Source of the DNA: Eubacteriales bacterium
GTDB lineage: Bacteria > Bacillota > Clostridia > Oscillospirales > Oscillospiraceae
Direction of reading: 5' to 3'
DNA length: 64,000 nt
Assembly (NCBI GenBank): GCA_030533415.1
Contig: JAUNJE010000001.1
Span: 89,578 to 153,577, forward strand
Every line of letters starts with the position of its first letter. The stretch's first letter is position 1. Shown in pieces: positions 12,466-51,628 of this stretch. A model generated the notes under the pieces. That model did no database searches, was not told the origin of the DNA, and saw only the letters and a list, made by a program, of their open reading frames with translations. Position numbers and translations under genes: made by a program.

Positions 12466-12539
12466 TACTGATATTCCATTAAAAAGTTTCATTCGCCAGA
12501 ATGGAAATTTTTAGAAACATTTTTATTAAAGAAACAGTC
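12466..12539. repeat. Short hairpin element of the IS630-linked MITE family, copy 1
   Basis: The sequence runs from TACTGATATTCC to GAAACAGT and contains the central CATTCGCCAGAATG hairpin. It is the reverse complement of the copy at 40897-40958 apart from a few differences and a small insertion. The right flank reads CT instead of AT, so that end has decayed. It abuts the stop codon of the ArsR-type gene. Confidence 0.8.
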
Positions 12540-12833
12540 TTACTCCAAAACGTGCTCCAAACCCGTCTGCAAAATGATCTTCACATGATCATCCGCCAAG
12601 GAATAGAGGATGTTTTTCCCCTCCCGGCGGAATTTGATCAGCTGCATCTGCTTCAAAATGCGCAGCTGATGGGAGATGGCGCTTTGGCTCAGCTCCACCG
12701 CTTCGGCAATATCCGTTACACACAGCTCCCGCTCCACCAGCAGTGACAGAATATGCACCCGGGTGGAATCGGCGAAGCCCTTAAACAGCTCCGCAATCGC
12801 ATCCAGCGTCTCTTTTTCGGGAATGGCCTGCAT
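12540..12833 (-). CDS. ArsR/SmtB-family metal-sensing repressor
   Basis: This is a 97-residue winged-helix repressor. The helix-turn-helix segment is VTDIAEAVELSQSAISHQLRIL-like (about 38-60) and the wing contains RREGKNILYSL. The last helix carries Asp-x-His...His-x2-Glu (in DDHVKIILQTGLEHVLE), which matches the alpha-5 zinc/cobalt site of CzrA and SmtB with Glu for the final His. The alpha-3 cysteine motif is only partial (ELCVTD instead of ELCVCD), so cadmium/lead sensing is unlikely. AAGGAGG precedes the ATG. No metal transporter is adjacent, so its target probably lies elsewhere. Confidence 0.88.
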   Translation of the reverse strand: MQAIPEKETLDAIAELFKGFADSTRVHILSLLVERELCVTDIAEAVELSQSAISHQLRILKQMQLIKFRREGKNILYSLADDHVKIILQTGLEHVLE

Positions 12834-12848
12834 CCGGGCACCTCCTTG

Positions 12849-13130
12849 ATTTTTGAAAGGCTTGCCTGCTAAAAGGCAAACCGGGCTTTGGGCGCTTCTG
12901 GCCTGTCAGCCAATTCGTGTTTTTATTATCTTAGCGTATTTTCCCGGAATTTGCAACCACTTTCTTCCGGCCTTTTTTGGGGCCGCAGCCGCCTGTCCCG
13001 GCGTCCAAGGCCCATGTCCACCTCGACATTTTCTTTTAAGATTTTACGAAAAGTCTATGCAAATGAAAAGAATTATGTTATAGTATAGTAAGTTTAATAT
13101 GTTAACTTATGCGCAAAATGAGAATGAGGC
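12849..13130. other. Divergent spacer between arsR-type gene and envelope operon
   Basis: This is about 280 bp without a supported gene. A TATAGT near 13079-13084 may be the -10 box for the plus-strand glycosyltransferase operon, but no good -35 box is seen. No palindrome resembling a metal-repressor operator was found by eye. Confidence 0.5.
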
Positions 13131-13136
13131 GATGAA

Positions 13137-14237
13137 ATGAAAGATTTATCTAAAATTTCGGTAGTCCTCCCCTCCCTCGACCCGGATGAGAAGCTGTCCG
13201 CCGTTATTGACGGTCTTTTGGAATACGGCTTCACGGACATCATTCTGGTCAACGACGGAAGCAAGCCCGAAAACCTCCCTTATTTCCTGGACGCCGCTGA
13301 CCGGCATCCGGAAATCCATCTGCTCCACCACGAAGTCAACAAGGGCAAGGGCGCTGCCCTGAAAAATGCCTTCCGTTGGTTTTTGGAAAACCGCCCCGAT
13401 GGCGTGGGGGTCGTCACGGTGGATGGCGATAACCAGCACCACCCGGAGGATACCCGGGCCTGCTGTGAACACATGCTGGAAACCGGCCACTGTGTCCTGG
13501 GCTGCCGGGACTTTACCTTGGAGCATGTCCCTCCCCGGAGCCGCTTCGGCAACCACGCCACCTCCCTGGTGTTCAAAATCTTCTGCGGAATGACCATTTC
13601 CGACACCCAGACCGGCCTGCGGGCGCTGCCCCGGGACGCGCTGGAAATCCTGGTAAACGTGGCCGGCGACCGATTTGAATACGAAACCAATATGCTGCTT
13701 GCCTTTAAGACCAACGCCATTCCCTTTGACGAGGTCAAGATCCGTACGGTATATATCGAAGAAAACAAAAGCTCCCACTTCCGGGTCATTCATGACTCCT
13801 GGCGGATCTATAAGCTGATTCTGGCCCATTTCTTCCGCTATACCCTCAGCTCCCTGGCCAGCGCTGTGGTGGATACGGTTTGTTTTTCCCTGCTGGACTG
13901 GCTCCTGGCCGGATTTTTGGGCGGCTTCGCCCTGACCGCCGCCGCAGGCGGAGGGGCGCGGATTCTCTCCTCCCTGCTGAATTTCTTTCTGAATAAGCAG
14001 CTGGTTTTCAAGGCCCATGTGGACACCGGGAAGGCCATGCTTCGCTATTACTGCCTGGCCCTGCCCCAGATGGCGGCACAGGTCCTGCTGACCCATGGCT
14101 TCTACGCCCTCTTCCGTATCAGCGACCGGGCTGTCGGCCTGCGCACCCTGATTTACACCATTGTCATGGTTGCGCTTTATTTCCTTAGCTACATGATCCA
14201 GCAGCGCTGGGTCTTTGCACCGCAAAAATCCAAATAA
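13137..14237 (+). CDS. Family 2 glycosyltransferase fused to a GtrA-like membrane domain
   Basis: This 366-residue protein has two parts. Residues 1-225 form a GT2 domain of the dolichyl/polyprenyl-phosphate mannosyl- or glucosyltransferase type, with the nucleotide-binding VNDGS (38-42), the metal-binding DGD (96-98) and the segment DTQTGLRALPRDAL. From about 235 to the end there are four hydrophobic helices with RILSSLLNFFLNKQLVF, the hallmark of GtrA proteins that flip or accept polyprenyl-linked sugars. Such fusions load a sugar onto undecaprenyl phosphate for envelope glycosylation. It starts a four-gene operon with a phosphodiester glycosidase and a PAP2 phosphatase, so a cell-surface polymer role is likely. 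The sugar is unknown. Confidence 0.88.
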   Translation: MKDLSKISVVLPSLDPDEKLSAVIDGLLEYGFTDIILVNDGSKPENLPYFLDAADRHPEIHLLHHEVNKGKGAALKNAFRWFLENRPDGVGVVTVDGDNQHHPEDTRACCEHMLETGHCVLGCRDFTLEHVPPRSRFGNHATSLVFKIFCGMTISDTQTGLRALPRDALEILVNVAGDRFEYETNMLLAFKTNAIPFDEVKIRTVYIEENKSSHFRVIHDSWRIYKLILAHFFRYTLSSLASAVVDTVCFSLLDWLLAGFLGGFALTAAAGGGARILSSLLNFFLNKQLVFKAHVDTGKAMLRYYCLALPQMAAQVLLTHGFYALFRISDRAVGLRTLIYTIVMVALYFLSYMIQQRWVFAPQKSK

Positions 14238-14249
14238 GAGGTTGAAAAA

Positions 14250-15416
14250 ATGAGCAAAAAGAATGTCCCGGATTATGCCGCTTCCATGGAGTCAGGAGCC
14301 GGCATGGCTGCCAAGCAGCCTAAGAAAAAGAAGAAGGGCGGCGGCCTTTTGGGCCGTATCATCCGCCGGTTTTTCCTGCTGCTGTTCACCGTTATCATCC
14401 TAGTCGTCGCGGCGCTGTGCCTGGCGGCGAACCTGGTGTTCAACGGCCCCTCCCCCGCTGCCCGCAGCGTGCTGACCATGACACTGCTGGAGCCAAGCGC
14501 CACCAAATGGATCCCCGCCCTGTTCATCGGGGAGGATGGTGTGAACGCCATTCTCGACAGTGCCAATGGCGCTGGACTGACTGACGATATCAGCAGCACC
14601 TCTCAGGTGGTCATCAAAAAGGTTGGCGCCATCACCTCTGAGGATCATGAATGGGACAACTATCCCGACGGCATCCGTATTGAAAGCTATGCCGGCGATA
14701 CCTATAATGCCCATATTATGATCATCCGCGACCCCTCCCTGGTCTACATGGCCACCTCCACCGACTCCTTCTCCACCAGCACCCCCGGCAAACGGATCAA
14801 TCAGGCCATTGCGGACGAGGGCGCCGTTGCCGCCATCAACGCCGGTGCCTTCAACGACGACGGTACCGCCAGCAGCTATGTCGGCAGCTGCCCCCTGGGC
14901 CTGGTCATGTCCAAGGGCAATTGTGTCTGGACCAGCGGCAAGCAGCCGGGTCTGGAAGGCTTCGCGGGCTTCAATACGGACAACATCCTGGTGGTGTCCA
15001 AAACCAACCTGACCAAAGCCCAGGCGGAAGAGCTGAACATCCGCGATGGCTGCTGCTTCGGCCCTGTTCTGATTATGAACGGGGAGGTCAACATGGAAGC
15101 CTACGCTGTTTCCGGCTGGAATCCCCGTACTGCCATCGGCCAGCGGGCAGACGGCGCCGTGATCTTCGTGTGTATCGACGGACGCCAGGCTGGCTCCATT
15201 GGCGGAACCTACGCCGATGTCATCAACATCATGGTGGAATATGGCGCGGTCAACGCCTGCAATATGGACGGCGGCTCCTCCTCCGTCATGATGTACCTGG
15301 ATAGCTACGGCCTGTACGGAGAAGCGGGCCAGTATCAGATGATCAACAATTACTCTCTGCTTCAGTCCCAGCCGAGACGTATGCCGAACTTCTGGATGGT
15401 TCGGCCTGCTGAGTAA
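14250..15416 (+). CDS. Membrane-anchored phosphodiester glycosidase (NAGPA domain)
   Basis: This 388-residue protein has a Lys-rich cytoplasmic start and one membrane helix (about 38-62), with the remainder outside. From about residue 150 it matches the NAGPA/DUF2233 domain, known from the lysosomal uncovering enzyme and from bacterial exopolysaccharide proteins. Landmarks are AAINAGAFND, GFNTDN, GWNPRTAIGQRADG and the terminal CNMDGGSSSVM loop. The family cleaves or forms sugar-phosphodiester bonds. The ribosome-binding site AGAGGTTG precedes the ATG, 12 bp after the glycosyltransferase stop. It probably trims or transfers sugar phosphates on the surface polymer made by its neighbours. Confidence 0.87.
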   Translation: MSKKNVPDYAASMESGAGMAAKQPKKKKKGGGLLGRIIRRFFLLLFTVIILVVAALCLAANLVFNGPSPAARSVLTMTLLEPSATKWIPALFIGEDGVNAILDSANGAGLTDDISSTSQVVIKKVGAITSEDHEWDNYPDGIRIESYAGDTYNAHIMIIRDPSLVYMATSTDSFSTSTPGKRINQAIADEGAVAAINAGAFNDDGTASSYVGSCPLGLVMSKGNCVWTSGKQPGLEGFAGFNTDNILVVSKTNLTKAQAEELNIRDGCCFGPVLIMNGEVNMEAYAVSGWNPRTAIGQRADGAVIFVCIDGRQAGSIGGTYADVINIMVEYGAVNACNMDGGSSSVMMYLDSYGLYGEAGQYQMINNYSLLQSQPRRMPNFWMVRPAE

Positions 15417-15430
15417 GGGAGGTGTAAGCT

Positions 15431-17131: not shown

Positions 17132-17134
17132 TCC

Positions 17135-17728: not shown

Positions 17729-17731
17729 TCC

Positions 17732-17766
17732 AAAAGCGCCGCAGTTCCCAAAACTGCGGCGCTTTT
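17732..17766 (+). terminator. Terminator of the envelope operon
   Basis: A perfect 15-bp stem (AAAAGCGCCGCAGTT with complement, five-base loop) begins just after the PAP2 stop and ends in CGCTTTTCATTAT. It can act on both strands. Confidence 0.85.
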
Positions 17767-17811
17767 CATTATATACTTATCGGGACTACGCAGCAAATAC
17801 GCCTGTCATGC

Positions 17812-17880
17812 ACTGGCGCTTAGAGCGCTTAAGGCTCCCTTGCGGAAAGGGAGGCTTGGGTGCGCTGAAATTCGGTAGAT
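17812..17880. repeat. Foldback repeat fragment (GGCTCCCTTG...GGGAGGCTTGGGTGCGCTG)
   Basis: A piece of the dispersed foldback repeat found again at 18134-18185, 18250-18500, 41145-41345 and 43545-43610. The shared core is an inverted CTCCCTT/AAGGGAG pair followed by CTTGGGTGCGCTG. The following 17881-18130 contains a GC-rich stretch with its own short inverted repeats (GTCCCTTTCTT/AAGAAAGGGAC near 17915-17945) but no gene. Confidence 0.6.
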
Positions 17881-18133
17881 TGTACGGTTTTGTTATCTTC
17901 TCAAAGAGACGGGGGTGTCCCTTTCTTGTTTCGGCAAGAAAGGGACGGAAAGAAGCCGACCAAAGGGGCGCTAGGTGCAAACGCGCCCCCTTTGGAAACC
18001 CCCGCCGCCTCGCCGTAGCTGCCTGTCAAGGACGAACAAATCAACTGGGAACATTGATTGCGCTGGTGTAGGAAGGCCTAGGCCCCCCCCGCATAAAGGC
18101 TGCCTGACTTTGCTATAATAGAAGAATGCCGTT

Positions 18134-18185
18134 GAGCACAAGGGAGGCTTGGGTGCGCTGCAAATCGGGCTTGCCAAGCGTAGCC
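18134..18185. repeat. Foldback repeat, half copy
   Basis: GCACAAGGGAGGCTTGGGTG plus CGCTG and a tail ending in AAGCGTAGCCGATAA repeats the right arm of the copy at 18250-18500. Confidence 0.55.
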
Positions 18186-18249
18186 GATAAACATCGAACC
18201 AATATTCATTGTCAATCAATACTTATTAACGGGCCAATCTTCCCTCAAC

Positions 18250-18500
18250 GTACTGGCGCGGGAGCGCCCAGGCTCCCTTGTGCAAAGGGAGCTGTCAAAA
18301 ATCTCTGATTTTTGACTGAGGGATTGTGCGGTAGGGGGGTGGGAATTCGCCGAAACTTGTGCGAAGCCGTAAGATGTTACCGCACAATCCCTCCGAGCCG
18401 CCTTACGGCGGCCCACCTCAGCGCAAGGCACTCCCTTCGGTCGCCTTTGCACAAGGGAGGCTTGGGTGCGCTGCATATCGGGCCTGCTAAGCGAAGCCGG
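18250..18500. repeat. Foldback repeat, complete copy of about 250 bp
   Basis: The left arm contains GGCTCCCTTGTGCAAAGGGA and GGGATTGTGCGG (18321-18331); the right arm contains CCGCACAATCCC (18381-18392) and CTTTGCACAAGGGAGGCT in inverted order, centred near 18356. The whole stretch could fold on itself. No coding capacity is supported. The second complete copy is split by an IS30 element at 41.3/43.5 kb. Confidence 0.65.
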
Positions 18501-18528
18501 TAAGCAGATTTTCTTATCATTCTGTTTT

Positions 18529-18969: not shown

Positions 18970-18971
18970 CC

Positions 18972-23127: not shown

Positions 23128-23404
23128 TTGGGGGATCACCTCCGATCAAGATTGGTTCCTCACTTATATAGAGGGATTTTCTGCCGGAAAGGTTACAGAA
23201 ATTTCGGCCTTTTTTGAAAAAATCCGCCGAAGCCCTTTTCTTCCCTTTTTTCGCCTTATCTGCGCAATTATACCATATTATAAGAGAAATGACCAGACCG
23301 GAGGGCCATAGAACACGGCATTTTGTCCTGTGTTCCGCCGGACCCGGCTTTTCTTACTGGCCCCCAAAACGCACTTGCAATTTACGGAAAAAATGTTATA
23401 TTGA

Positions 23405-23612
23405 TACTGATATTCCATTAAAAAGTTTCATTCGAGAAGGGAACTTTTTAATAGGAAGATCATTATGAGACGGGTTTTCGTGATTTTCCATCTCAAAAAT
23501 CACGAAAACGGCACACCCACCGCAGTGGGCGTACATAGCGCCTTAGCGCGGAGTAACGCCGCCAGGCGGTGCCTTCTTTATAAAAATAAAACATTTTTAT
23601 AAAGAAGCAGTA
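23405..23612. repeat. Composite modular hairpin element (MITE family), copy 2
   Basis: About 208 bp bounded by ATACTG and CAGTAT. The left module is the TACTGATATTCC hairpin type; the middle holds a long palindrome (TTTTCGTGATTTT with its complement) plus GC-rich stems including GCCGCCAGGCGGTGCC; the right module is TTCTTTATAAAAATAAAACA ending in AAAGAAGCAGT. The middle palindrome and GCCTGGCGG module reappear in copy 3 in inverse order. Between 23128 and 23404 there is only AT-rich spacer with the sigma-operon promoter region. Confidence 0.8.
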
Positions 23613-23673
23613 TGAAACCAGAAAAACCATATTGTTGTATTGCGCCCGCCCCACAACCCCAAAGGAAGAAGGT

Positions 23674-24237
23674 ATGAATATGGCCGGCCTTACCAAGAAA
23701 GCAATTCGGAGCTCTTTCATAAAGCTATTGAACGAGCGGCCTCTCAGTCAAATTTCCGTCCGGGATATCGTAGACGATTGCGGCGTCAACCGCAACACCT
23801 TCTATTACTATTTTCAGGACATCCCCCAATTGCTGGAGAGCATTGTGAACGAAGATGTGCAGAGAATCATCCGGGAGTATCCCACCACCAGCTCCATAGA
23901 GGAATGCCTGGACGCTATGATCGGCTTTGCGCTGGAAAATCGAAAAGCGGTCATGCACATTTACCATTCCGTAAACCGGGACATCTATGAGCAGTACCAA
24001 TGGCGGGTATGCACGCATACGGTTACCACCTATGTGGACAGCATTCTGGCCGGCCATAATGTGGCTGCTCCAGACCGGGAGCTGATCATTGATTATCTGA
24101 GATGTGTGTTCTTCGGCCTTCTCATCGGCTGGCTGGAAGCGGGGATGCAGAAAGATATTCAAACCCGTTTCCACCGGATCTGCGAACTGAAGCAAGGCGA
24201 TTTGGAGCAGATGATCTCCCGGTGTGAAGGACAGTAA
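23674..24237 (+). CDS. TetR/AcrR-family transcriptional regulator
   Basis: This is a 187-residue repressor. The ATG at 23674 follows AGGAAGAAGG; another ATG lies two codons later. The N-terminal helix-turn-helix is SQISVRDIVDDCGVNRNTFYYYF, the typical TetR recognition region. The C-terminal ligand domain is of the TetR_C type seen in dihydroxyacetone-kinase-linked and YvdT-like regulators. It precedes the oleate hydratase gene in the same direction with a terminator hairpin in between, so it probably senses fatty acids or related lipids and controls that gene and the island behind it. Confidence 0.88.
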   Translation: MNMAGLTKKAIRSSFIKLLNERPLSQISVRDIVDDCGVNRNTFYYYFQDIPQLLESIVNEDVQRIIREYPTTSSIEECLDAMIGFALENRKAVMHIYHSVNRDIYEQYQWRVCTHTVTTYVDSILAGHNVAAPDRELIIDYLRCVFFGLLIGWLEAGMQKDIQTRFHRICELKQGDLEQMISRCEGQ

Positions 24238-24341
24238 TACTGTTTCTTTATAAAAATGTTTCCTTTTTATAAAGAAGGCACCGCCTGGCGGTTTTCGTGA
24301 TTTTCGAGATAGAAAATCACGAAAACCCGTCTCATTCAGTA
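24238..24341. repeat. Composite modular hairpin element (MITE family), copy 3
   Basis: 104 bp from TACTGTTTCTTTATAAAA to CTCATTCAGTA, directly abutting the TetR stop codon (TAA then TACTG). Modules in order: an A/T-rich hairpin, CACCGCCTGGCGG, a palindrome GTTTTCGTGATTTT with its complement, then CCGTCTCATTCAGT. The order is the reverse of copy 2. Confidence 0.85.
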
Positions 24342-24414
24342 TAAAAGACGCATCCGGCAAACAAGCCCCGTGTCCCAAAACCGGACAATCCGGACTTTGT
24401 GTCCCAAAAACAGG

Positions 24415-24526: not shown

Positions 24527-26302
24527 ATGTATTATGCAAGTGGAAACTATGAAGCGTTCGCACGTCCCCGTAAGCCGGAGGGTGTCGACAACAAGTCGGC
24601 TTACATCATCGGCACCGGCCTGGCCGCTCTGACAGCGGCCTGCTATCTGGTGCGGGACGGCCAGATGAAGGGCAGCAATGTCCACATCTTTGAGAAGGAC
24701 CCCATCCCCGGCGGCGCCTGTGACGGCTATGAATACCCCGGTGTGGGCTACGTCATGCGCGGCGGCCGGGAGATGGATAACCATTTTGAGGTCATGTGGG
24801 ATTTGTTCCGCTCCATCCCCTCCATCGAAACCGAGGGCGTCAGCGTGCTGGATGAATATTACTGGCTGAACAAGGAGGACCCCAACTATTCCCTGTGCCG
24901 GGCCACGGTGAACCAGGGTCAGGACGCCCACACCGACGGCAAGTTCGGCCTGTCCGACAAAGGCGCCATGGAGATCATGAAGCTCTTCTTCACCCCGGAC
25001 GAGGACCTGTACGACAAGCGCATCACGGATTTCTTTGACGACGAGGTGCTGAACTCCAACTTCTGGCTGTACTGGCGCACCATGTTCGCCTTCGAAAACT
25101 GGCACTCCGCGCTGGAGATGAAGCTGTACATCAAGCGCTTTATCCATCATGTGGGCGGCCTGCCGGATTTCACCGCCCTGCGGTTTACCAAATATAACCA
25201 GTACGAGTCCATGATTCTGCCCATGGTCAAGTATCTGGAGGGCTTCGGCGTGCAGTTCCACTACAACACCAAGGTCGTCAATGTGGAATTTGACATCCGC
25301 GGAAGCAGGAAGGCGGCCAAGCGCATTGAACTGCTGGCAGACGGCGGGAGTAAGTTCGTTGACCTGACGGAAAACGACCTGGTATTCATCACCAACGGCG
25401 GCTGCGTGGAAAATTCCACCCTGGGTTCCCAGAACACCCCCGCCCCCTTCCATCCCGAGATCAAGCCCGGCGGCGGCTGGGATATGTGGCGGAAAATCGC
25501 CGCCCAGGACCCCGCCTTCGGCCATCCCGACAAGTTCTGCTATGACCCGGAGCAGTCCAACTGGATGAGTGCCACCGTCACCACCCTGGACCAGAAGATC
25601 ATTCCCTATATCCAGAATATCTGCAAGCGGGACCCCTTCTCCGGCAAAGTGGTCACCGGCGGCATCGTCACGGTGAAGGACTCCTCCTGGCTGCTGTCCT
25701 GGACCATCAACCGGCAGCCCCAGTTCCACAGCCAGCCTGAGGGCCAGTGCCTGGTGTGGGTCTACGGCCTGTTCTCCGACAAGCCCGGCGACTATGTGAA
25801 GAAGTCCATGCGGGAGTGCTCCGGCAAGGAGATCTGCATGGAGTGGCTGTACCACATCGGCGTACCCGTTGACCAGATCGAGGAGCTGGCCGCCAATTCC
25901 GCCAACACCGTGCCCTGCATGATGCCCTACATCACCGCTTTCTTTATGCCCCGCGCGGCTGGCGACCGCCCTGACGTGGTGCCCGAGGGTGCTGTCAACT
26001 TTGCCTTCCTGGGCCAGTTCGCGGAAACCAAGCGCGATACCATCTTCACCACCGAGTATTCCATGCGTACCGGCATGGAGGCCGTATATACCCTACTGAA
26101 CATCGACCGGGGCGTCCCGGAGGTCTGGGGCAGCACCTACGATATCCGGGACCTGCTGAATGCCACCATTCAAATGCGCGACGGCAAGCCCCTGACGGAA
26201 ATGAACCTGGGCTTTAAGGAGCGGATGGTGGTCAAGAAGCTGCTGGAAAAGATCCGGGGAACCGACATTGAAAAGCTGCTGAAGGAATATCATGTGATCT
26301 GA
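24527..26302 (+). CDS. ohyA: Oleate hydratase (myosin cross-reactive antigen family)
   Basis: This is an FAD-dependent hydratase that adds water across the cis-9 double bond of oleic, linoleic or palmitoleic acid to give 10-hydroxy fatty acids. Its length of 591 residues is normal. The dinucleotide-binding motif is YIIGTGLAALTAACYL (27-41), then IFEKDPIPGGACDGYE. The catalytic Glu82 sits in the conserved RGGREMDNHFEVMW segment, and the C-terminal FLGQFAETKRDTIFTTEYS is characteristic. The start is supported by CAAGGAGGC. In gut bacteria the enzyme detoxifies unsaturated fatty acids. It stands behind a TetR regulator and ahead of a membrane lipid-transporter operon. Confidence 0.95.
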   Translation: MYYASGNYEAFARPRKPEGVDNKSAYIIGTGLAALTAACYLVRDGQMKGSNVHIFEKDPIPGGACDGYEYPGVGYVMRGGREMDNHFEVMWDLFRSIPSIETEGVSVLDEYYWLNKEDPNYSLCRATVNQGQDAHTDGKFGLSDKGAMEIMKLFFTPDEDLYDKRITDFFDDEVLNSNFWLYWRTMFAFENWHSALEMKLYIKRFIHHVGGLPDFTALRFTKYNQYESMILPMVKYLEGFGVQFHYNTKVVNVEFDIRGSRKAAKRIELLADGGSKFVDLTENDLVFITNGGCVENSTLGSQNTPAPFHPEIKPGGGWDMWRKIAAQDPAFGHPDKFCYDPEQSNWMSATVTTLDQKIIPYIQNICKRDPFSGKVVTGGIVTVKDSSWLLSWTINRQPQFHSQPEGQCLVWVYGLFSDKPGDYVKKSMRECSGKEICMEWLYHIGVPVDQIEELAANSANTVPCMMPYITAFFMPRAAGDRPDVVPEGAVNFAFLGQFAETKRDTIFTTEYSMRTGMEAVYTLLNIDRGVPEVWGSTYDIRDLLNATIQMRDGKPLTEMNLGFKERMVVKKLLEKIRGTDIEKLLKEYHVI

Positions 26303-26459
26303 TACGGATTCTTCCTAAAACCTAACGGTTTTAGAAAGAAGGAACCGCCTAACGGCGCTTCCGGTTTGTGGCGAATCGCCACAAACGTCGTCCCATACAG
26401 TTCTTAACGCACCTGCGGTGCTATAAAAAGGTTTTCAGCCTTTTTCATAAGAGCTAGTA
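26303..26459. repeat. Composite modular hairpin element (MITE family), copy 4
   Basis: 157 bp immediately after the ohyA stop codon, from TACGGATTCTTCC to AGAGCTAGTAT. It contains a CTAAAACC/GGTTTTAG hairpin, ACCGCCTAACGGCGCTTCC, the palindrome TTTGTGGCGAATCGCCACAAA, and a GTTCTTAACGCACCTGCGGTGC module. The same modules in inverse order form copy 8 at 49789-49946. Confidence 0.85.
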
Positions 26460-26490
26460 TGAACCACACATTTTGGCTGCGCATAAGGTC

Positions 26491-26543
26491 TCCCACACGC
26501 TTAAGCGTGTGGGAGCACTCCCGCCGCTGCGTTTGCAGCGGCG
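26491..26543 (+). other. Two adjacent hairpins in the leader of the HdeD-like gene
   Basis: TCCCACACGC/GCGTGTGGGA (loop TTAA, 26491-26514) is followed by CGCCGCTGC/GCAGCGGCG (26522-26543). Neither has a U-tract. They lie 45-97 bp ahead of the GTG start and may affect stability or read-through from ohyA. Confidence 0.55.
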
Positions 26544-26587
26544 AATCCCTGCATAAACAGGATTTTAACGCAAAGGAGGTACTGCTT

Positions 26588-27187
26588 GTGAATACAAATA
26601 ACCGTATCAAGGCCGCAAAGCTCGGCTACATCATCGTTTCTCTTCTGCTCTGTGCGCTGGGGATCGTGTTGATCGCGGTTCCGGATTTCTCGGCTTCCCT
26701 GCTTTGCTGGGTTGGCGGGCTGCTTCTGGTTTTGTTCGGCCTTATCAAAATTGCCGGCTATTGCTCAAAGGATTTATACCGTCTGGCGTTTCAATATGAC
26801 CTGGCCTTCGGCATTCTGCTGATTGCCCTTGGCGCGATTCTCATATTCCGCACGGAAACAATGGTAAATGTGATTTGGGTTCTCCTGGGGATCAGCATCT
26901 TGGCCGATGCCCTGCTGAAAATACAAATCGCGATCGATTCCAAGATATTTGGCATCCATCAATGGTGGCTGATTTTTTCCATGGCCATTCTTACGGGCAT
27001 TGTCGGTTTTCTGCTGGTTTTGCGCCCGTCGGAAAGCGCGCAGGCCGTCATGGTGCTTCTTGGGATCTCCCTGCTGTCTGAGGGGATTCTGAACCTGGTG
27101 ACGATTCTGACAGCCGTCAAAATTATCCGCGATCAAAAGCCGGTTGTAATTGATGCCGAATTCTGTGGAGCAGAGCGCGACTTGTAA
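26588..27187 (+). CDS. HdeD-like membrane protein (DUF308)
   Basis: This 199-residue protein has six predicted helices arranged as three similar pairs, each with the (G)xxLLxxGILxI-type pattern of DUF308/HdeD proteins (for example LLLVLFGLIKIAGY, FGILLIALGAILIF, FLLVLRPSESAQAVMVLLGIS). HdeD is an acid-resistance protein in Escherichia coli; the family role elsewhere is unclear. GTG at 26588 follows AAAGGAGGT. It ends at a TAA that touches a short MITE derivative, with the MMPL gene 64 bp further on. Confidence 0.82.
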   Translation: MNTNNRIKAAKLGYIIVSLLLCALGIVLIAVPDFSASLLCWVGGLLLVLFGLIKIAGYCSKDLYRLAFQYDLAFGILLIALGAILIFRTETMVNVIWVLLGISILADALLKIQIAIDSKIFGIHQWWLIFSMAILTGIVGFLLVLRPSESAQAVMVLLGISLLSEGILNLVTILTAVKIIRDQKPVVIDAEFCGAERDL

Positions 27188-27211
27188 TACTGTTTCTTTA
27201 TAATATCAGTA
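27188..27211. repeat. Minimal MITE derivative, 24 bp, copy 5
   Basis: TACTGTTTCTTTATAATATC followed by AGTA: one end is the TACTGTTTC type and the other the GATATCAGTA type, joined with nothing between. It looks like an internal deletion of the 62-74 bp form and abuts the stop codon of the HdeD-like gene. Confidence 0.7.
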
Positions 27212-27250
27212 TCATTTCCGCAACATCGTAGGAAGGGTGTTCAATCGAAT

Positions 27251-40884: not shown

Positions 40885-40896
40885 TCCTCGTTTTCA

Positions 40897-40958
40897 TACT
40901 GTTTCTTTATAAAAATGTTCCATTCTGGCGAATGAAGCTTTTTAATTGAATATCAGTA
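40897..40958. repeat. Short hairpin element of the MITE family, copy 6
   Basis: 62 bp from TACTGTTTCTTTATAAAAAT to GAATATCAGTA, with a CATTCTGGCGAATG centre. It is the inverse of copy 1 and is flanked by AT on both sides. It lies directly upstream of the GH53 gene. Confidence 0.85.
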
Positions 40959-41144
40959 TCCGCTTTGGTCACCGGATTCACAGGCAATCTGCATCCAAAT
41001 ATTGTATTCCTTATCATACCCGTTCTGCCCGCCGCAGTCAACATCCACTTTTCCGGAAGCAGAAATTTTCCCTGCCGCCGTACAGGGTAGAACAGGTCGG
41101 AAAATAACGGCGGCTGACGCTGTCAGCCGCCGTTCAGACTGTCG

Positions 41145-41345
41145 ATAAACCCTCTGGCGCGGGAGCGCCCAAGGCTCCCTTGTGCAAAGGCGACCGAAGG
41201 GAGTGCCTTGCGCTGAGCTGTCACGCGAACAGCGTGACTGAGGGATTGACGCGGTAAAATGTTTCCTTTTCGCCGAAGTCCAATGCGAATTCGTAACATT
41301 CCACTGCACAATCCCTCCGAGGCGGCTTACGCCGCCCCACGGCAG
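41145..41345. repeat. Foldback repeat, left portion (split by IS30)
   Basis: CTGGCGCGGGAGCGCCCAAG then GCTCCCTTGTGCAAAGG, a GTCACGCGAACAGCGTGAC hairpin, GAGGGATT and further on GCACAATCCCTCCGAGGCGG repeat the arrangement of 18250-18500. The remaining arm appears at 43545-43610 on the other side of the IS30 element. Confidence 0.7.
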
Positions 41346-41349: not shown

Positions 41350-41910
41350 TCAAGCAAGTGCAACACTTTCGAGTAAAATTTCAGCCGGAGTTTTCCAGCC
41401 GAGACATTTTCTGGGACGGTTGTTGATGATGTTTTCAACGCGTTGAATATCATCGTCGGTCACTGTCCTGAAATCAAACCCTTTCGGAAAGAAAAATCTG
41501 ATAATGTCGTTCGCGTTCTCGTTTGTTCCCCGCTGCCACGGTTTATGCGGCTCGGCAAAGTAGACAAGTGTATGTAGGTTCGCTTCTAACTTCCGGAACT
41601 CAGAGAATTCTGACCCATTATCTAAATTTATACTCTTGACAGGCAGCCCAGCCAACAGCTTCTCAATAACCAACCGGGTGCATTCCGCTGTCCGGTTCCT
41701 GAGCAGACCTATTTTCAAAAACCGGCTCCTTCTGTCCACCAGACTCACCAACAACCCTTTCCCAATACCGCCATAAACCGTATCGCCTTCCCAGTCGCCG
41801 ATCCTGGTTCGACAGCGGATCTCCTCCGGCCACTCAGGGATGATACGGTCAGGCTGGATGGTATTATAGTTGGAGTTCCTGGGAAGATTCCTCTTCCCAC
41901 GACGTCTGAT
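41350..41910 (-). pseudogene. IS30 transposase, C-terminal catalytic part
   Basis: The frame reads RRRGKRNLPRNSN..., RIGDWEGDTVYGG, VSLVDRRSRFLKIG, then NLDNGSEFSEF and EPHKPWQRGTNENANDIIR, i.e. the three acidic positions of the IS30 DDE core (in DWEGD, LDNGSEF and GTNENAN). It ends at 41350 within the terminal repeat. It is separated from its N-terminal half by the IS630 insertion. Confidence 0.85.
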
Positions 41911-41918
41911 ACTGATTT

Positions 41919-42422
41919 TTAATTAAAACATTTAAGAATCCACTCTCTACCAGTGATACTAGAAATGGTCTGGTTCGAGAGGGAACAGATGGTGTCGCAA
42001 AGGCGGTCCATGACTTTGTTCAGCGTCGCAAACACTTCGTTGCGGAACCCTCTCTTGCGAATTTCTTTCCAAATCTGTTCGATGGGGTTCATCTCCGGTG
42101 TGTACGGTGGGATATGGAATCGTTCTATGTTTTCCGGGATCTCCAATGCGCCAGACTTGTGCCATGCTGCTCCGTCGCAGCACAGCAGAATGGTATCGTT
42201 CGGGTATGTTCTGGACAAATCTCGCAGAAATTCGTTCATGCAGACCGAGTTGCACTTGGGAAGCACCAGAAAGAAGCTGTCTCCCGTCAGTGGTTCCACT
42301 GCTCCAAAGGCATAGTAATACTCCCGGATATGGTGGCAGGGCACACTAGGTCGTACCCCCTCCCCGCACCAGCAGTATTTGGGCTTGTTGATCCGACCGA
42401 AGCCTGCTTCATCCTGGAACAT
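41919..42422 (-). CDS. IS630 transposase OrfB, DDE catalytic domain
   Basis: This is identical in sequence to the copy at 309-812. It carries the catalytic residues in MFQDEAGFGR, LLCCDGAAWHKS and YTPEMNPIEQIWKEI. Translation is expected as a fusion from OrfA through -1 slippage at the run of seven (T7 on the plus strand at 42479-42485), since the OrfB frame is open well upstream of its first ATG and has no ribosome-binding site. With its partner intact, this copy should be active and could also act on the short elements that share its ends. Confidence 0.9.
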   Translation of the reverse strand: MFQDEAGFGRINKPKYCWCGEGVRPSVPCHHIREYYYAFGAVEPLTGDSFFLVLPKCNSVCMNEFLRDLSRTYPNDTILLCCDGAAWHKSGALEIPENIERFHIPPYTPEMNPIEQIWKEIRKRGFRNEVFATLNKVMDRLCDTICSLSNQTISSITGREWILKCFN

Positions 42423-42454
42423 TAAGCGGATTTTCTTCCCGCTGTGGATAACTT

Positions 42455-42967
42455 TCAGTTCTTCGACTCGGGACTTAATTTTTTTGAGGCCGCAATTTCT
42501 TCACCGCTGGCCTTTTTCGGGTGCTTGCTGCGTGGCATGACTTTGCGCCAACCGTGACGATGCAGTACAAAGTAAATCTGACTGTCGCTGATGGGATGGT
42601 CGACAGCCGCCTGATACGCTGCCTTGATCTCACTGATCTCAACAAGTTCGCCTTTTTCTGCTCTTTCTCGGAAAGACGCAAGAATCTCGGCTTCTTCTTC
42701 CACGCTCATATTGCGGTGATTTCCGCCGTAATGGTTGCCAGCAATCGCTTCAATACCGCCCTTTTTGTATTTCGCTGCCAATTGAGCGGCATAGGCAGAA
42801 TGAAAACCGGTTGCTGCCGCAATTTCCTTACCCTTTGCTCCTTTGGCGCGCATTTCCAATGCTTTCAATCTCGCCTCAGCTCGCTTGTCCTTATTCTCTC
42901 TGCGAGCTTGTGCTATCTCTTCAATTTCTTTTTCACTAAATTTGTATACCTGTGCCATTGTTATCAC
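42455..42967 (-). CDS. IS630 transposase OrfA, DNA-binding domain
   Basis: Complete 170-residue N-terminal half. Residues 1-60 form a first helix-turn-helix (ALEMRAKGAKGKEIAAATGF), followed by a second, winged-type helix-turn-helix around residues 95-150, the standard architecture for IS630/Tc1 transposases. It starts close to the terminal inverted repeat. The C-terminal KKLSPESKN part beyond the A7 run is read only when no frameshift occurs. Confidence 0.9.
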   Translation of the reverse strand: MITMAQVYKFSEKEIEEIAQARRENKDKRAEARLKALEMRAKGAKGKEIAAATGFHSAYAAQLAAKYKKGGIEAIAGNHYGGNHRNMSVEEEAEILASFRERAEKGELVEISEIKAAYQAAVDHPISDSQIYFVLHRHGWRKVMPRSKHPKKASGEEIAASKKLSPESKN

Positions 42968-43025
42968 CCAGATATATTATAGCACATCTTAGTGTAAATG
43001 TTAAATTGTTTTATTAAAAAATAGT

Positions 43026-43453
43026 ATGAGATGGGTTCTTTCGGTGATCTCCGGGAATTTTCCTAACTTTATGTACCGGTAAATGGTAGATACACAAAGC
43101 TGCTTTCTTCCTGGAAACATCTTGTGCCAGCGTTCGCGGATCGTCTCCGGTGACCAGTAACGCTTCAGTCCGGCAACAATATAGTCCCATTCCGGCGTGT
43201 CGGGCTTCAGGGCTTGGCGGTTCTGCTCCCGACGGCGGCGGATATAGAGATTATTCGCCCGCCAGTGATTATACAGGTATTTGTTGTCCGGCTTCTTATG
43301 AGGTTTGTACTTGGCTTTGTTGCGCCTGACCTCCCGGCTGATGGTAGACGGACTGCGTTCCAAAATGGCCGCAATTTCCCGAAAAGATTTCTTCTCTGCC
43401 AAAAGTTTTTGTAGATATTTTCTTTCTTCTAGTGTAAAATGTGTGTAGGACAA
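43026..43453 (-). pseudogene. IS30 transposase, N-terminal part
   Basis: Starting at a TTG (43453) after GAGGTGAG, the frame gives SYTHFTLEERKYLQKLLAEK, a helix-turn-helix (SFREIAAILERSPSTISREV) and WSPETIRERWHKMFPGRKQL, matching the IS30 N-terminal region. After EITERTHL it runs into the IS630 end. Joined across one AT dinucleotide to the fragment at 41350-41910 it reads HLIRRRGKR, an uninterrupted transposase. Confidence 0.85.
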
Positions 43454-43544: not shown

Positions 43545-43610
43545 AAATTATAACCTGCCCACCTCCCTTTGCACAAGGGAGGCTTTGGTGCAATGCTAAT
43601 TGGTAAACTT
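43545..43610. repeat. Foldback repeat, right portion (split by IS30)
   Basis: CCACCTCCCTTTGCACAAGG then GAGGCTTTGGTGCAATGC is the outer right arm corresponding to 18440-18475. Together with 41145-41345 it rebuilds one repeat copy if the IS30 is removed. Confidence 0.6.
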
Positions 43611-44724: not shown

Positions 44725-44738
44725 AGAAAACTGAGTCT

Positions 44739-44920: not shown

Positions 44921-44951
44921 TAAAAAAGCCAGTCCATATTTCAGGACTGGC
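44921..44951 (-). terminator. Terminator of the gshA/tcdA operon
   Basis: GCCAGTCC/GGACTGGC with an eight-base loop is followed on the minus strand by TTTTTTATTTCC. Almost the same 35-bp sequence, including the flanking TTTCAGGAAATAAAAA, recurs at 58430-58466. The rest of 44768-44920 is AT-rich spacer. Confidence 0.85.
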
Positions 44952-44991
44952 AGGCAACGCTGTATTTCCCTTTTACACAGATAACACCAAA

Positions 44992-45756: not shown

Positions 45757-45767
45757 ATTGTTTCCTC

Positions 45768-47808: not shown

Positions 47809-47822
47809 TACGATCCCTCCGT

Positions 47823-48566: not shown

Positions 48567-49750
48567 GCTTTTCTCTCCAATATGTAATGTATCTGATATT
48601 CCCAGCTTTCCCGGCTGTCCGCACGGAGCAGGAAAGCGTGATCGCCCATATCCGGCGCCAATGTCTCGTCCACTTCAAAGTCCTCGATGATCTGGTCCCC
48701 AAACGCTGACCGGATTTCCGCGTCAGAACGGACATAGGCGATTGCGTTCCGTCTGCCGATGTGGGTGATATAATGCCGGAAGGTGCCCTCCAGAAAACAG
48801 CGGTCGTAAATCAGGCTGTCCGCCCAGATGGTATACACATCGGTTTCAAAGGCGTAATTCATCTTGTCCGGAATTCGTCCACCGGGAGCACGCATATTCA
48901 CTTCCAGCCCGACGATGCCGCCCTCCCTTCCGAGTCCTTCCCTGTCTGCATCCAGACGGAAAAATTCAAAATGGAAGAAGCGGTTTTTCGTGTTGAATTC
49001 TTTCAGGAGCCGGGTCCCCGCCTGCCGCAGATCCTCCGGAACATCCTGACAGTAGCTGATGATGTCATCACCGTGAGCGGCATCCATGAGGCTCTTGGGC
49101 AGCACCTGACTGGCAGCAAAAAGCACATTGCAGCTGCTGTCCGTAATGCCGTCAAAGGTTTCCACATGGCCGGGAACGCATTCTTCCTCGATGTATGCAG
49201 TGGCAGCATTCCTGCTTTCCCAGAAAGAAATCAGATCGTCACCGTTTTTCAGCTTGTGTGTATCACTGGCACCCATGCCATGGTCTGGCTTGATGATGAT
49301 GGGATAACCCACATCCTTTGCAAAAGCCAGTGCCTGCTCCAGATTCTGGGGCAGAAGCCAGCGGGCTGCGGGAATCCCCGCCCTGGCATAGGCCGCTTTC
49401 ATTTCCGATTTCCGGTTCATAGCGGCAAGCTCCGCCAGATTGGGGCCGGAGGTGATGTGAAAATCCGTTCGGATACGGGCATCAAGCTCCAGCCAGTATT
49501 CATTCTGACTTTCCACGAAATCAATCCTCCCATACAGGAAGATGAATTCCGCCACACAGCGGTATACCGCCTCATAATCGGCAAGGCTTTGAACAGAGCG
49601 GTAGTCATTGAGGGCGTTTCTGCACTCTTGGCTTAAGCATTCCCAGGGCGTGTCGCCAATACCAAGCACGTGGACGCCACGGGTCTTCAACCTGTCACAG
49701 AATTGATAAAAATGTTTGGGATAACCCGGTGAAATGAAAATGACGTTCAT
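48563..49750 (-). CDS. ATP-grasp ligase (carboxylate-amine ligase), substrate unknown
   Basis: This 395-residue protein of the ATP-grasp superfamily has an N-terminal Rossmann-like part (NVIFISPGYPKHFYQF), the ATP-binding YPIIIKPDHGMGASDTHKLK and the Mg-binding VGLEVNMRAPGGRIPDKMN. The last motif is typical of ATP-grasp enzymes joining amino acids or peptides (carnosine-synthase, L-amino-acid ligase and biotin-carboxylase-like groups). It is the first gene of the operon, with AGGGAGGAG before the ATG. Coupled to gshA, it may add a second amino acid to gamma-glutamylcysteine in place of GshB, but the family covers many substrates. Confidence 0.85.
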   Translation of the reverse strand: MNVIFISPGYPKHFYQFCDRLKTRGVHVLGIGDTPWECLSQECRNALNDYRSVQSLADYEAVYRCVAEFIFLYGRIDFVESQNEYWLELDARIRTDFHITSGPNLAELAAMNRKSEMKAAYARAGIPAARWLLPQNLEQALAFAKDVGYPIIIKPDHGMGASDTHKLKNGDDLISFWESRNAATAYIEEECVPGHVETFDGITDSSCNVLFAASQVLPKSLMDAAHGDDIISYCQDVPEDLRQAGTRLLKEFNTKNRFFHFEFFRLDADREGLGREGGIVGLEVNMRAPGGRIPDKMNYAFETDVYTIWADSLIYDRCFLEGTFRHYITHIGRRNAIAYVRSDAEIRSAFGDQIIEDFEVDETLAPDMGDHAFLLRADSRESWEYQIHYILERKA

Positions 49751-49788
49751 AATACTCCTCCCTACTTGTTCAAAGTGTCATGCTGTTA

Positions 49789-49946
49789 TACTAGTTCTTA
49801 TGAAAAAGGTTGAAAACCTTTTTATAGCACCGCAGGTGCGTTAAGAACTGTATGAGACGACTTTTGTGGCGAATCACCACAAACCGGAAGCGCCGTCAGG
49901 CGGTGCCTTCTTTATAAAAATGAAACATTTTTATAAAGAAACAGTA
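49789..49946. repeat. Composite modular hairpin element (MITE family), copy 7
   Basis: 158 bp, AT-flanked, from TACTAGTTCTTATG to AAAGAAACAGTA. Left module: AAAAAGGTTGAAAACCTTTTT with GCACCGCAGGTGCGTTAAGAAC; middle: TTTGTGGCGAATCACCACAAA and GAAGCGCCGTCAGGCGGTGCC; right: TTCTTTATAAAAATGAAACA with its complement. It has the same modules as copy 4 in reverse order. It lies upstream of the five-gene operon. Confidence 0.85.
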
Positions 49947-49956
49947 TTACACGGCA

Positions 49957-49988
49957 AGGGTGCAGCGGTTTCACTGCACCCTGTTTTT
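49957..49988 (+). terminator. Rho-independent terminator or attenuator ahead of the sulfhydrylase gene
   Basis: AGGGTGCAG/CTGCACCCT with an eight-base loop is followed by GTTTTTTTC. No plus-strand gene precedes it, so it either blocks read-through from the MITE or acts as an attenuator in the long 5' region of the gene at 50341. Confidence 0.8.
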
Positions 49989-49999
49989 TTCTTACCTTT

Positions 50000-50047
50000 A
50001 GCTAAAATGAAAAACCTTTTTATGGCACCGCAGGTGCGTTAAGAACT
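50000..50047. repeat. Truncated MITE module
   Basis: GAAAAACCTTTTTATGGCAC then CGCAGGTGCGTTAAGAACTGTATGAAACGG repeats the left module of copy 7 without its outer end. The remainder of 50048-50267 is AT-rich and probably contains the promoter and LysR-binding sites of the next gene; I found no certain -35/-10 pair. Confidence 0.6.
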
Positions 50048-50267
50048 GTATGAAACGGCTTTTATGGCGGTTTTCTGAATACGGGTTACGAAATTCGTCA
50101 TTTCCGTTGCGCCCTAATTTGCTGATAGCTGAATTATATCCTTATTAAAATACTATGTCAATAGGAATTTATGTAAATAAGTTATAGGCGTTCGGATTAG
50201 CTGGTTATAAAAAATAACGAATACTGGAGAGCCATTTGTTCGTTGACAGCGCAAATCAGGTATTTTA

Positions 50268-50325
50268 TACTGATATTCAATCAAAATGTTTCATCCGAGG
50301 GATTGAACATTATCTGAAAAAATTG
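50268..50325. repeat. Degenerate MITE copy in the leader of the sulfhydrylase gene
   Basis: TACTGATATTCAATC and the hairpin TGTTTCATCC/GGATTGAACA match the element remnant at 51577-51628, but the right end has decayed. It lies 15 bp upstream of the start codon region, so it is part of the messenger leader. Confidence 0.6.
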
Positions 50326-50340
50326 CGAGGTATCGTCAGC

Positions 50341-51537
50341 ATGGCTAAAAAGGAAAACAAATTTAAGGATTATGACATTACGACACAGGCAATCCATACC
50401 GGAAACGACTATGATGCAGAAACCGGAGCAGTGCGGCGTCCGCTTCACATGGCAAATAGTTATAAGCTTCCGGATGACTTGTCTCAGGTGAATTACTCAT
50501 CAACGGATCTTCTGATGTATGCCAGAAACGGAAACGCAAACCAGCACTGGCTCGAACAGAAGGTAGCAGCCCTATATGGCGCAGAGGATGCCATTGTACT
50601 GGCCAGCGGTGTGGCAGCGCTTCATGCTTTGTTCTGGACGCTGCTGCAATCGGGAGACCGGGTGGTCTACCCAAAGGTCAGTTATATGGCTGTTTACCGT
50701 ATGTTCCATGAATTGTTCAATCGAAAGTTTGGCGTGGAAACCGTTATGGTGGACATGACCGATTTGGAAGCTGTGAAAAAAGCCATCACGCCCAGAACAA
50801 AGCTGGTACATATTGAGACCCCGGATAATCCAACCGTAGGCGTCACCGACATTGCCGCGGTTGCGGAAATCGCCCACAAAAACGGGGCCATTCTTTCCGT
50901 GGATAATACATTTGCCTCTCCGCTGAACCAGCGTCCTCTGGCGTTGGGCGCTGACTTTGTGGTGGATGCCCTGACCAAGTTTATCAACGGCCACGGCGAT
51001 GCCCAGGGAGGCGCGATCTTGTCAAACGATCTGGAAACCATGGACAGAATCCGTTATGAGGCCCAAGTAAACGTGGGCAGCGTAATCAGCCCCTTCAATG
51101 CCTGGCAGATATTCCGTGGCAGCGTCACGTTTCCTCTCCGAATGCAGCGAATCAATGAATCCTCCCTGAAAATTGCGCAGTGGCTGGAACAAAGAAAAAA
51201 CGTGACCTTCGTTTCGTACCCTGGCCTCCCCAGCAACCCGGGATACCAGACTGCCAAAAAGCAAATGACCAACGGATTCGGGGGTGTTATCTCCTTTGGT
51301 GTGAACACGGATGACAAATCTGTGGAGTCGTTTTGCGCCGCTCTGAAGGTGGTCACCTTTGCCGTCTCCCTGGGGCATGATGAGAGTCTGATTTTTCCGC
51401 AGCCAAGCTATGACGAGCGGATCCATCTGTACCCGGAAACGTTCCGTAACGGATTCATTCGGTTCAGTGTCGGCCTGGAAGATCCGGATGACATCATCCG
51501 GGACATTGACCAGGCGCTTCATTCCATTGGATTGTAA
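50341..51537 (+). CDS. Trans-sulfuration PLP enzyme (cystathionine gamma-synthase/lyase or O-acyl-homoserine sulfhydrylase family)
   Basis: This fold-type I PLP enzyme has 398 residues from the ATG 50341 (AKKENKFKDYDITTQAIHTG), behind GCGAGGT. The pyridoxal Lys is probably Lys213 in VVDALTKFINGHGDAQGG, Asp188 lies in SVDNTFASP, and the phosphate-contact Tyr-Arg pair is in LMYARNGN. The family acts on cystathionine, methionine or O-acylhomoserine; the exact reaction cannot be read from the sequence (the segment is less typical of MetB/CGS). It lies divergent to the gshA operon and immediately before a LysR regulator, so cysteine or homocysteine supply for thiol synthesis is likely. Confidence 0.88.
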   Translation: MAKKENKFKDYDITTQAIHTGNDYDAETGAVRRPLHMANSYKLPDDLSQVNYSSTDLLMYARNGNANQHWLEQKVAALYGAEDAIVLASGVAALHALFWTLLQSGDRVVYPKVSYMAVYRMFHELFNRKFGVETVMVDMTDLEAVKKAITPRTKLVHIETPDNPTVGVTDIAAVAEIAHKNGAILSVDNTFASPLNQRPLALGADFVVDALTKFINGHGDAQGGAILSNDLETMDRIRYEAQVNVGSVISPFNAWQIFRGSVTFPLRMQRINESSLKIAQWLEQRKNVTFVSYPGLPSNPGYQTAKKQMTNGFGGVISFGVNTDDKSVESFCAALKVVTFAVSLGHDESLIFPQPSYDERIHLYPETFRNGFIRFSVGLEDPDDIIRDIDQALHSIGL

Positions 51538-51576
51538 TACTGATTCTTGATTCAACTTTTTAATCAAGAATCAGTA
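51538..51576. repeat. Perfect palindromic MITE derivative, copy 8
   Basis: 39 bp: TACTGATTCTTGATT, nine-base loop, AATCAAGAATCAGTA. It touches the stop codon of the sulfhydrylase gene (TAA then TACTG) and carries both MITE termini with nothing else. Confidence 0.8.
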
Positions 51577-51597
51577 TTAATTGAATATCCGTATAAA

Positions 51598-51628
51598 ATG
51601 TTTCATCCAGAGGATGGAACATTTTTTT
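51598..51628 (+). terminator. Terminator after the sulfhydrylase gene
   Basis: ATGTTTCATCC/GGATGGAACAT (11-bp stem, loop AGA) followed by TTTTTT. The hairpin is itself a piece of the MITE family (compare 50290-50315), so a mobile repeat appears to supply the terminator. Confidence 0.8.

Follow-up and report, generated by a model that had tools for sequence, protein, structure and literature searches.

Why do so many short repeats in the genome of a gut bacterium begin and end like its resident IS630-type insertion sequence (IS)? Could they depend on that IS for their movement? We analysed a 64,000-nucleotide stretch, here called the window, of contig JAUNJE010000001.1 (positions 89,578 to 153,577; assembly GCA_030533415.1, Eubacteriales bacterium, Oscillospiraceae), together with the remainder of the source genome and related genomes, many of which likewise carry numerous copies. 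The original prediction, made from the letters of the window, was that at least nine short elements form a non-autonomous family sharing its ends with the IS. This idea held up: end similarity continues past the terminal hexamer, empty sites exist, and elements and IS co-occur. Judging from sequence, we consider it probable that the elements belong to the miniature non-autonomous transposons (MITEs) and that a two-ORF IS630-type transposase most likely moves them in trans.

Results

Elements in the window

All nine listed places proved real, each being either an element or an end of one; the coordinates needed correction, the true starts lying one base lower (Table 1). Two copies, at 26302 and 49788, had been thought to carry their modules in opposite order. 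Both are of the A-E-C type and lie in opposite orientation, with the module order unchanged. At the minimal elements at 27187, 40896 and 51537 the flanking triplets do not match, which counts against the interpretation given above.

Table 1. Insertion sequences, elements and element ends in the window.
Feature	Coordinates	Strand	Flanks and remarks
IS630-type insertion sequence, complete, 1119 bp	41909..43027	-	TGA on both sides; ORFA 42455-42967, ORFB 41919-42422
Second IS630 copy, cut by window start	1..822	+	full copy C73:89281-90399, identical; ORFB 309-812, DDE_3
Short B-to-A element	12465..12540	-	TTA/TTA
A-F-D-B element with extra F insert	23404..23613	-	TGA/TGA
A-D element without hairpin 4	24237..24342	+	TAA/TAA; left TAA is stop codon of ORF 23632-24237
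A-E-C element	26302..26460	+	TGA/TGA; left TGA is stop codon of ORF 24527-26302; linker GTCCCAT
Minimal 26-bp element, two inverted ends only	27187..27212	+	left TAA is stop codon of ORF 26459-27187; right TCA
Minimal A-B element	40896..40959	+	left TCA, right TCC
A-E-C element	49788..49947	-	TTA/TTA
C-type end fragment	50011..50069	-	93% to 49813-49871
One-sided B-type end	50267..50311	.	end coordinate approximate
Stand-alone palindrome, two inverted ends only, 41 bp	51537..51577	.	left TAA is stop codon of ORF 50236-51537; right TTA

Abundance, architecture and spread

Genome-wide, the A-end pattern (22 bases) has 73 matches, the B-end pattern (25 bases) 55 and the C module 12. With up to 3 mismatches allowed in the end patterns, the reversed patterns that served as control gave 0, and the abundance of the end patterns is far beyond chance. 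The elements are thus short, multi-copy and bounded by terminal inverted repeats (TIRs), as MITEs are. Coding capacity for a transposase is absent: 92 of 106 copies lack any frame open throughout, and the longest stop-free run is 63 codons.

The common architecture comprises a left TIR, hairpin 1, a GC-rich hairpin 2, hairpin 3, an unpaired GTCTCAT linker, hairpin 4 and a right TIR, over a length of about 160-170 bp. Most copies, in whatever species, share the hairpin order and a total length of about 168-170 bp, and the linker is the most conserved part of the element; in the A-E-C rows it reads GTCCCAT in 5/7. Two covariance models recovered the same design in 41/136 genomes of the genus; the family is larger than first described. 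One of the two models gave matches in 0/294 other genomes of the order. Searches of viral contigs with one exact pattern, and of plasmids with one element, returned no match. The four covarying hairpins, the GTCTCAT linker, the genus-wide spread and the frequent stop-codon targets are features seen in the sequence beyond those named in the original prediction.

Boundaries and empty sites

Elements and IS had been assigned the common ends ATACTG/ATACTA and CAGTAT/TAGTAT. The sharing is correct, but the outermost A and T are part of the target, because the duplication is TNA and not TA. The element proper is therefore TACTG...CAGTA, enclosed in a 3-bp TNA duplication. TNA stands at 128 of the 137 recognised ends in the source genome, and the triplet is identical on both sides in 75/87 elements from 27 relatives. 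We rejected a TA duplication around an element CTG...CAG: it would require that the target be TNATATNA, with N identical at both its positions, and it is also countered by the empty sites upstream of uvrB, which include the stop codon TAA directly followed by the ribosome-binding site.

As to such empty sites, whose presence in relatives had been proposed as a check, the place upstream of uvrB (identified by Pfam) is unoccupied in all 27 relative loci that have both flanks (29 examined). Two sites of the window (26302..26460 and 27187..27212) are likewise unoccupied at the corresponding syntenic position in the relative G100. Both a target site duplication and empty sites, as expected of a MITE, are hence found. 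Other repeats within the source genome were also searched for empty sites, which yielded no clear case. When insertion sites were compared, 13 pairs had some flank in common and two pairs had both. The members of the pair L261/L263 come from almost identical stretches of two assemblies, perhaps owing to contamination; in the pair C32:57773/L326 the immediate contexts differ.

Stop codons as landing sites

The TNA target accommodates the stop codons TAA and TGA; insertion there would regenerate the stop and leave the gene intact. Are such sites preferred? Their use somewhat exceeds expectation. Against a per-gap null, 32 of 70 sites were at stop codons versus 21.0 expected. In the source genome, with a simpler control, the excess is weak (two-ended elements, 8/32, p = 0.025; one-ended, 7/73, p = 0.13). 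An early count had placed 24/137 ends at stop codons. The notion of strong targeting was weakened by a stricter gene caller, which in the source genome put 15/105 elements at stop codons versus 235/2044 control sites; the per-gap null refers to a different set.

The partner insertion sequence

The genome holds two transposase copies, both within the window and identical, and therefore probably recent. Both IS copies measure 1119 bp in the contig, are flanked by TGA/TGA, and begin and end with the hexamers predicted for them. ORFA encodes winged-HTH domains and ORFB a DDE_3 domain (Pfam), with an A7 run between the two. A DDE_3 transposase with HTH domains agrees with IS630 membership. The TA target with 2-bp duplication was not found; the IS clade has TNA triplets, identical on both sides in 32 of the 43 copies with a left-end TNA (55 copies had both ends picked). 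The IS is IS630-like by sequence and departs from the family description by its target. An IS5-type mover, first suggested by the TNA repeat, was rejected on the Pfam DDE_3 match.

How far does the likeness between element and IS ends reach? Its restriction to the short ATACTG string had been named as a refuting observation. Over positions 7-28 the mean identity is 57-67%, compared with 35-37% for position-shuffled IS ends; in three pairings out of four no shuffle among 1000 reached the observed similarity, and in the fourth a single one did. The A ends are about equally like the right and the left IS end. Elements are present in 11 of 13 genomes with an IS match, versus 30 of 123 without (Fisher p = 3e-5).

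Mobilisation by the IS is what we infer from these sequences. Another transposase might instead move the elements, the shared ends reflecting an older kinship with the resident IS630. An end identity of only 57-67% would suit this explanation, as would the detection of elements but no IS in 30 genomes, some of them nearly complete (e.g. G019, 100%, 14 matches), but incomplete assemblies can hide an IS. We regard it as unlikely in view of the unusual TNA repeat common to IS clade and elements, the excess over shuffled ends, the co-occurrence, and the identity of the presumably recent IS copies in the source genome.

Hairpins constrained as DNA or as RNA

The stems vary in sequence and keep their pairing. 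Changes on both sides were seen in 52/64 stem pairs, far above both controls, with a covariation of 0.350 versus 0.121 for shuffled and 0.03-0.08 for slid alignments; these figures lean upward because A3, which consists of related rows, had been fitted to its own model. Could the elements be conserved as transcribed structured RNA downstream of genes, acting as terminator, mRNA stabiliser or regulator? The fold is strong in both species examined, and many copies lie where genes end (at the stop codon in 34 of 102). However, tandem placement is sense in 25 and antisense in 23 cases, and among intermediate mismatches G.T (42 cells) is not in excess over A.C (59 cells). Rfam 15 at gathering score returned tRNA only, in the window and 10 relative loci. 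The absence of a G.T excess and the equal orientations favour a DNA-level structure over a one-strand RNA, and we hold the RNA explanation to be very unlikely.

A more serious contender, to which we would still give somewhat less than an even chance, is that the covariation does not reflect selection. Near-perfect palindromes could be corrected arm to arm by template switching in replication, pairing being passive, so that both sides would change in one mutational step. The 723 cells changed on both sides indeed far outnumber the intermediates, and a wobble preference is absent. Arm correction leaves unexplained why hairpin order and length are kept across species, and why an unpaired linker is the most conserved part.

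Discussion

The elements are of a known kind, the MITE, here in a new variant. In the mechanism that we propose, the transposase would bind the outer ~28 bp, and the element would be pasted into TNA with a 3-bp stagger, duplicating the target. Less certainly, pairing may be a property kept in the DNA of both strands, either because folding helps movement, for instance if it draws the two ends close in single-stranded DNA, or because the arms of a palindrome correct one another. Equally tentatively, the terminal hairpins may be former stand-alone minimal elements that were later built into composites as their ends, and the exchange of modules would follow from this. A broader proposal, possible but on balance doubtful, is a class of mini-transposons whose mobility depends on their own DNA folding: four hairpins drifting in sequence while pairing, a nearly invariant unpaired GTCTCAT recognition motif, an IS630-clade transposase inserting at TNA with 3-bp duplication, and stop codons as harmless landing sites.

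The parallel first drawn with RUP of Streptococcus pneumoniae stands as an analogy in kind. Together with IS630-Spn1, RUP is described as a short, intergenic, multi-copy element with ends resembling a resident IS630, of one simple form, 107 bp long, with a 9-bp TIR and TA-containing targets (PMC3049150, PMC2229807). By that description the present elements would not be classed as RUP, having TNA targets, about 160-170 bp, four hairpins and several subfamilies. BOX elements of streptococci, as portrayed in PMC3049150, also combine modules variably and have terminal inverted repeats, target duplications and strong folding. In BOX the variation lies in how many boxB modules are present, and the link is to ISSpn2 (PMC3049150), whereas our elements exchange end and core modules and have IS630-like ends; the comparison is at the level of the modular plan.

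ISY100, an IS630 family member, resembles the partner IS in its DDE_3-type transposase, HTH domains and short TIRs, but is reported to insert almost exclusively at TA with TA duplication (PMC2170065), unlike the TNA of the present clade. For eukaryotic Fot elements, which belong to the related pogo group, duplication of TAA has been reported (PMC7386202). Our results would broaden the range of targets used by IS630-type elements, from TA to TNA, and a 3-bp duplication would let a transposon settle on stop codons with the gene undamaged.

Correia/NEMIS and other bacterial MITEs are described as similarly small elements that have TIRs, duplicate their target and form stable hairpins (PMC2229807); the descriptions consulted give no comparable covariation record. 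The present family has diverged copies in sufficient number to distinguish structural constraint on DNA from that on RNA, which is usually hard for bacterial repeats. Being multi-copy repeats, the elements are also places where contigs can end, as in two contigs of G153.

A modular family of hairpin elements

At least nine short elements had been predicted in the window, and the motifs described for them are present at all nine listed places. Two of them (26302-26460, + strand; 49788-49947, - strand) had been read as carrying the same modules in opposite order; both are instead of the A-E-C type and differ in orientation only. In the assembly of the source genome, G000 (2.72 Mb, 80 contigs, 88% complete; the window is C73:89578-153577), the A end (ATACTGTTTCTTTATAAAAATG, up to three mismatches) occurs at 73 places, the B end (ATACTGATATTCAATTAAAAAGTTT) at 55 and the C module at 12, and the reversed pattern of each at none. 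Module matches form 109 clusters in 92 stretches (303 kb), a count that takes in IS630 ends and a few weak single matches. The coding capacity is small, with no frame open throughout in 92 of 106 copies.

Recurrent forms and positions of features. Bare coordinates are window positions; C-numbers are contigs, L-numbers fetched loci.
Feature	Position	Length	Remark
A-D-B form		170 bp	recurrent
A-E-C form		159 bp	recurrent
Form with F insert		longer	recurrent
Minimal forms		roughly 25-67 bp	recurrent
One-sided copies			recurrent
Element upstream of uvrB	C32:74119-74288		gene by Pfam UvrB_inter
IS630 copy, complete	41909-43027	1119 bp	
Second IS630 copy	cut by window start		
Second dispersed repeat (AAGGGAGGCTTGGGTGCGCTG and related)	17838-18506, 18360-18421, 41284-41345, 43566-43603		repeat finder
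GTTGTCATCCTGAGCGAGCGGAGCGAGTCGAAGGATCTT... repeat	L017, L098, L102, L019		G000 contigs C28, C46, C49, C31

How might such modules have come together? The inner arm of hairpin 4 repeats the outer end in degenerate form (TATGAT... versus TACTGAT...), and a stand-alone palindrome of two ends exists at 51537-51577; hairpin 4 therefore looks like a formerly stand-alone palindromic element. Adjacent minimal elements would then have been mobilised jointly as composites. An A-D-C-like copy in the relative G050 (L374/L391) lends support to an exchange of modules.

Within the genus, a covariance model built from 14 G000 copies and one copy of the relative G037 (R1) matches 34 of 136 genomes at E <= 1e-3, G000 counted, while the A-end sequence itself (up to two mismatches) turned up in G000 and, of 98 relatives, in G037 alone. 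A second model from seven A-E-C copies (R2) matches 39 of the 136, recognises R1-type copies as well, and brings the union to 41; copy numbers per genome are lower bounds, about 20 candidates having been scored in each. R2 also retrieved distant forms (L386, L402, L387, L389) that keep the plan with unlike stems. R1 at 1e-5 matched none of 294 other sampled genomes of the order, with 9 candidates scored per genome and two of the 294 being genus members. Two contigs of the relative G153 (C20 and C80; L403, L404) stop within hairpin 4 of an element; draft assemblies therefore probably understate the number of copies.

Target duplication, empty sites and stop codons

Of the 137 ends recognised in G000 (four of them IS ends), 128 have the triplet TNA, and 26 of 32 two-ended elements show one and the same base N left and right, including two (C43:20931, C62:43861) with one end not cleanly placed. 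Elements of relatives have TNA on both sides in 78 of 87 cases and identical triplets in 75: with the A end left, TAA 40, TGA 16, TCA 15 and TTA 4. In the IS clade, the right end was recognised in 68 of 80 loci and is followed by TNA in all 68. A simple rule picked both ends in 55 loci, of which 43 have a left TNA, the other 12 including contig starts and probable mis-picks; triplets are identical in 32 of the 43. Published reports describe insertion almost exclusively at TA for ISY100, a studied IS630 member (PMC2170065), and TAA duplications for eukaryotic Fot elements (PMC7386202). A literature search that missed most subscription journals recognised no description of IS630 duplicating 3 bp or TNA, a weak indication that none exists.

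Empty sites, which the original prediction had suggested looking for in close relatives, are present in relatives. For the element upstream of uvrB, the query matched in 129 of 136 genus genomes; best matches gave 29 relative loci, and the element is absent from all 27 with both flanks. In several of these a TAA stop is followed at once by AGGAG or GGAG, and subtracting the element and one TAA from the G000 site likewise leaves a TAA stop directly before AGGAG/GGAG. Elements are also absent from the syntenic places of 26302-26460 and 27187-27212 in the relative G100, where the spacer has diverged.

One locus pair among the compared elements shares both flanks almost exactly, L261/L263 (99.6-100% identity over 500 bases each side). 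L261, L263 and L264, from three genus assemblies, carry the same element in nearly identical flanks (L264 by element plus flanks); shared contamination and recent transfer are the alternatives.

TAA and TGA both fit TNA, so insertion at a stop codon duplicates that codon. Four window elements (24237, 26302, 27187, 51537) start at the stop codon of the preceding ORF, as do 34 of a 102-element set (26 via the A end, 8 via the B end). Among 70 elements, a set that omits non-identical triplets, elements lacking gene calls, divergent gaps and the duplicate L263, 32 occupy stop-codon sites versus 21.0 expected from TNA sites per intergenic gap (simulation P = 1e-4). A cruder control in G000 alone gave 8/32 (p = 0.025) and 7/73 (p = 0.13). 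We read the excess as a moderate preference or a survival effect.

Conserved hairpins: DNA or RNA?

From the R1 matches we aligned 87 copies of 27 relatives (27 fetched loci, 60 by place) with three from G000; the 91st row is a second match in L259, weak and overlapping the first. In this alignment 95.8% of cells are paired, both sides change in 52 of 64 pairs (723 cells), and the covariation score is 0.350 versus 0.121 after shuffling (0/500 as high) and 0.03-0.08 when the structure is slid, figures biased upward because the alignment was fitted to its own model and its rows are related. In 12 copies of pairwise identity below 80%, mean identity is 52-53% in hairpin-1 arms, 70% in hairpin-4, 79-81% in hairpin-3 and 79-83% in hairpin-2 arms, 86% and 94% in the TIR hexamers, and 100% in the unpaired linker GTCTCAT. 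An unaltered linker is present in 98 of 106 copies, but five of seven A-E-C rows read GTCCCAT and L387 reads GGCTCAT, so the motif is nearly invariant and no more. The motif is absent from the IS itself.

A one-strand transcript under selection should favour G.U, which appears as A.C on the opposite strand. Outside the TIR stem and a 3-bp helix, which the count omits, non-Watson-Crick cells comprise 42 G.T, 59 A.C and 95 other, or 22, 27 and 49 as distinct events. Relative to neighbouring genes, 102 elements (four of 106 dropped for want of a gene call; L264 omitted as a near copy of L263) lie tandem sense in 25 cases, tandem antisense in 23, convergent in 34 and divergent in 20. Given these mismatch counts and the sense/antisense placement, we consider DNA-level hairpins, or correction of one arm by the other, more likely than an mRNA element.

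The probable partner IS630

G000 has two DDE_3 matches, both inside the window, and its two IS copies are identical. The DDE_3 domain lies in ORFB, and ORFA has winged-HTH domains; frameshifting could occur at the A7 run between them. A short ORF adjoining one copy (41350-41754) weakly resembles rve (integrase core), scoring under the Pfam cut-off. Among GTDB contigs a scan gave 263 IS-related stretches; the best 80 of these mostly carry titles such as Oscillospiraceae, Clostridia or Ruminococcus, apart from a few MAGs under other titles. The relative G101 and a record of Candidatus Faecousia faecipullorum have identical IS ends.

As predicted, the identity between element and IS termini runs past the short ATACTG string: at positions 7-28 it averages 57-67% (10 A, 8 B, 4 left and 9 right IS ends) versus 35-37% for position-shuffled IS ends. 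Within G000, B matches the right IS end at 73%. The match is not clearly end-specific, because A is 68% identical to the left and 64% to the right IS end.

An IS match is present in 13 of 136 genus genomes, several as fragments only. Elements occur in 11 of these 13 versus 30 of the 123 others. The chief weakness in the argument that the IS moves the elements is these 30, for which assemblies may be incomplete, IS copies lost or a different mover at work. Two element-rich genomes hold decayed IS copies, with an internal stop codon in the transposase (G160:C57, G153:C3).

Other dispersed repeats

The second dispersed repeat is unrelated to the hairpin elements, and another (GTTGTCATCCTGAGCGAGCGGAGCGAGTCGAAGGATCTT...) directly adjoins several of them.
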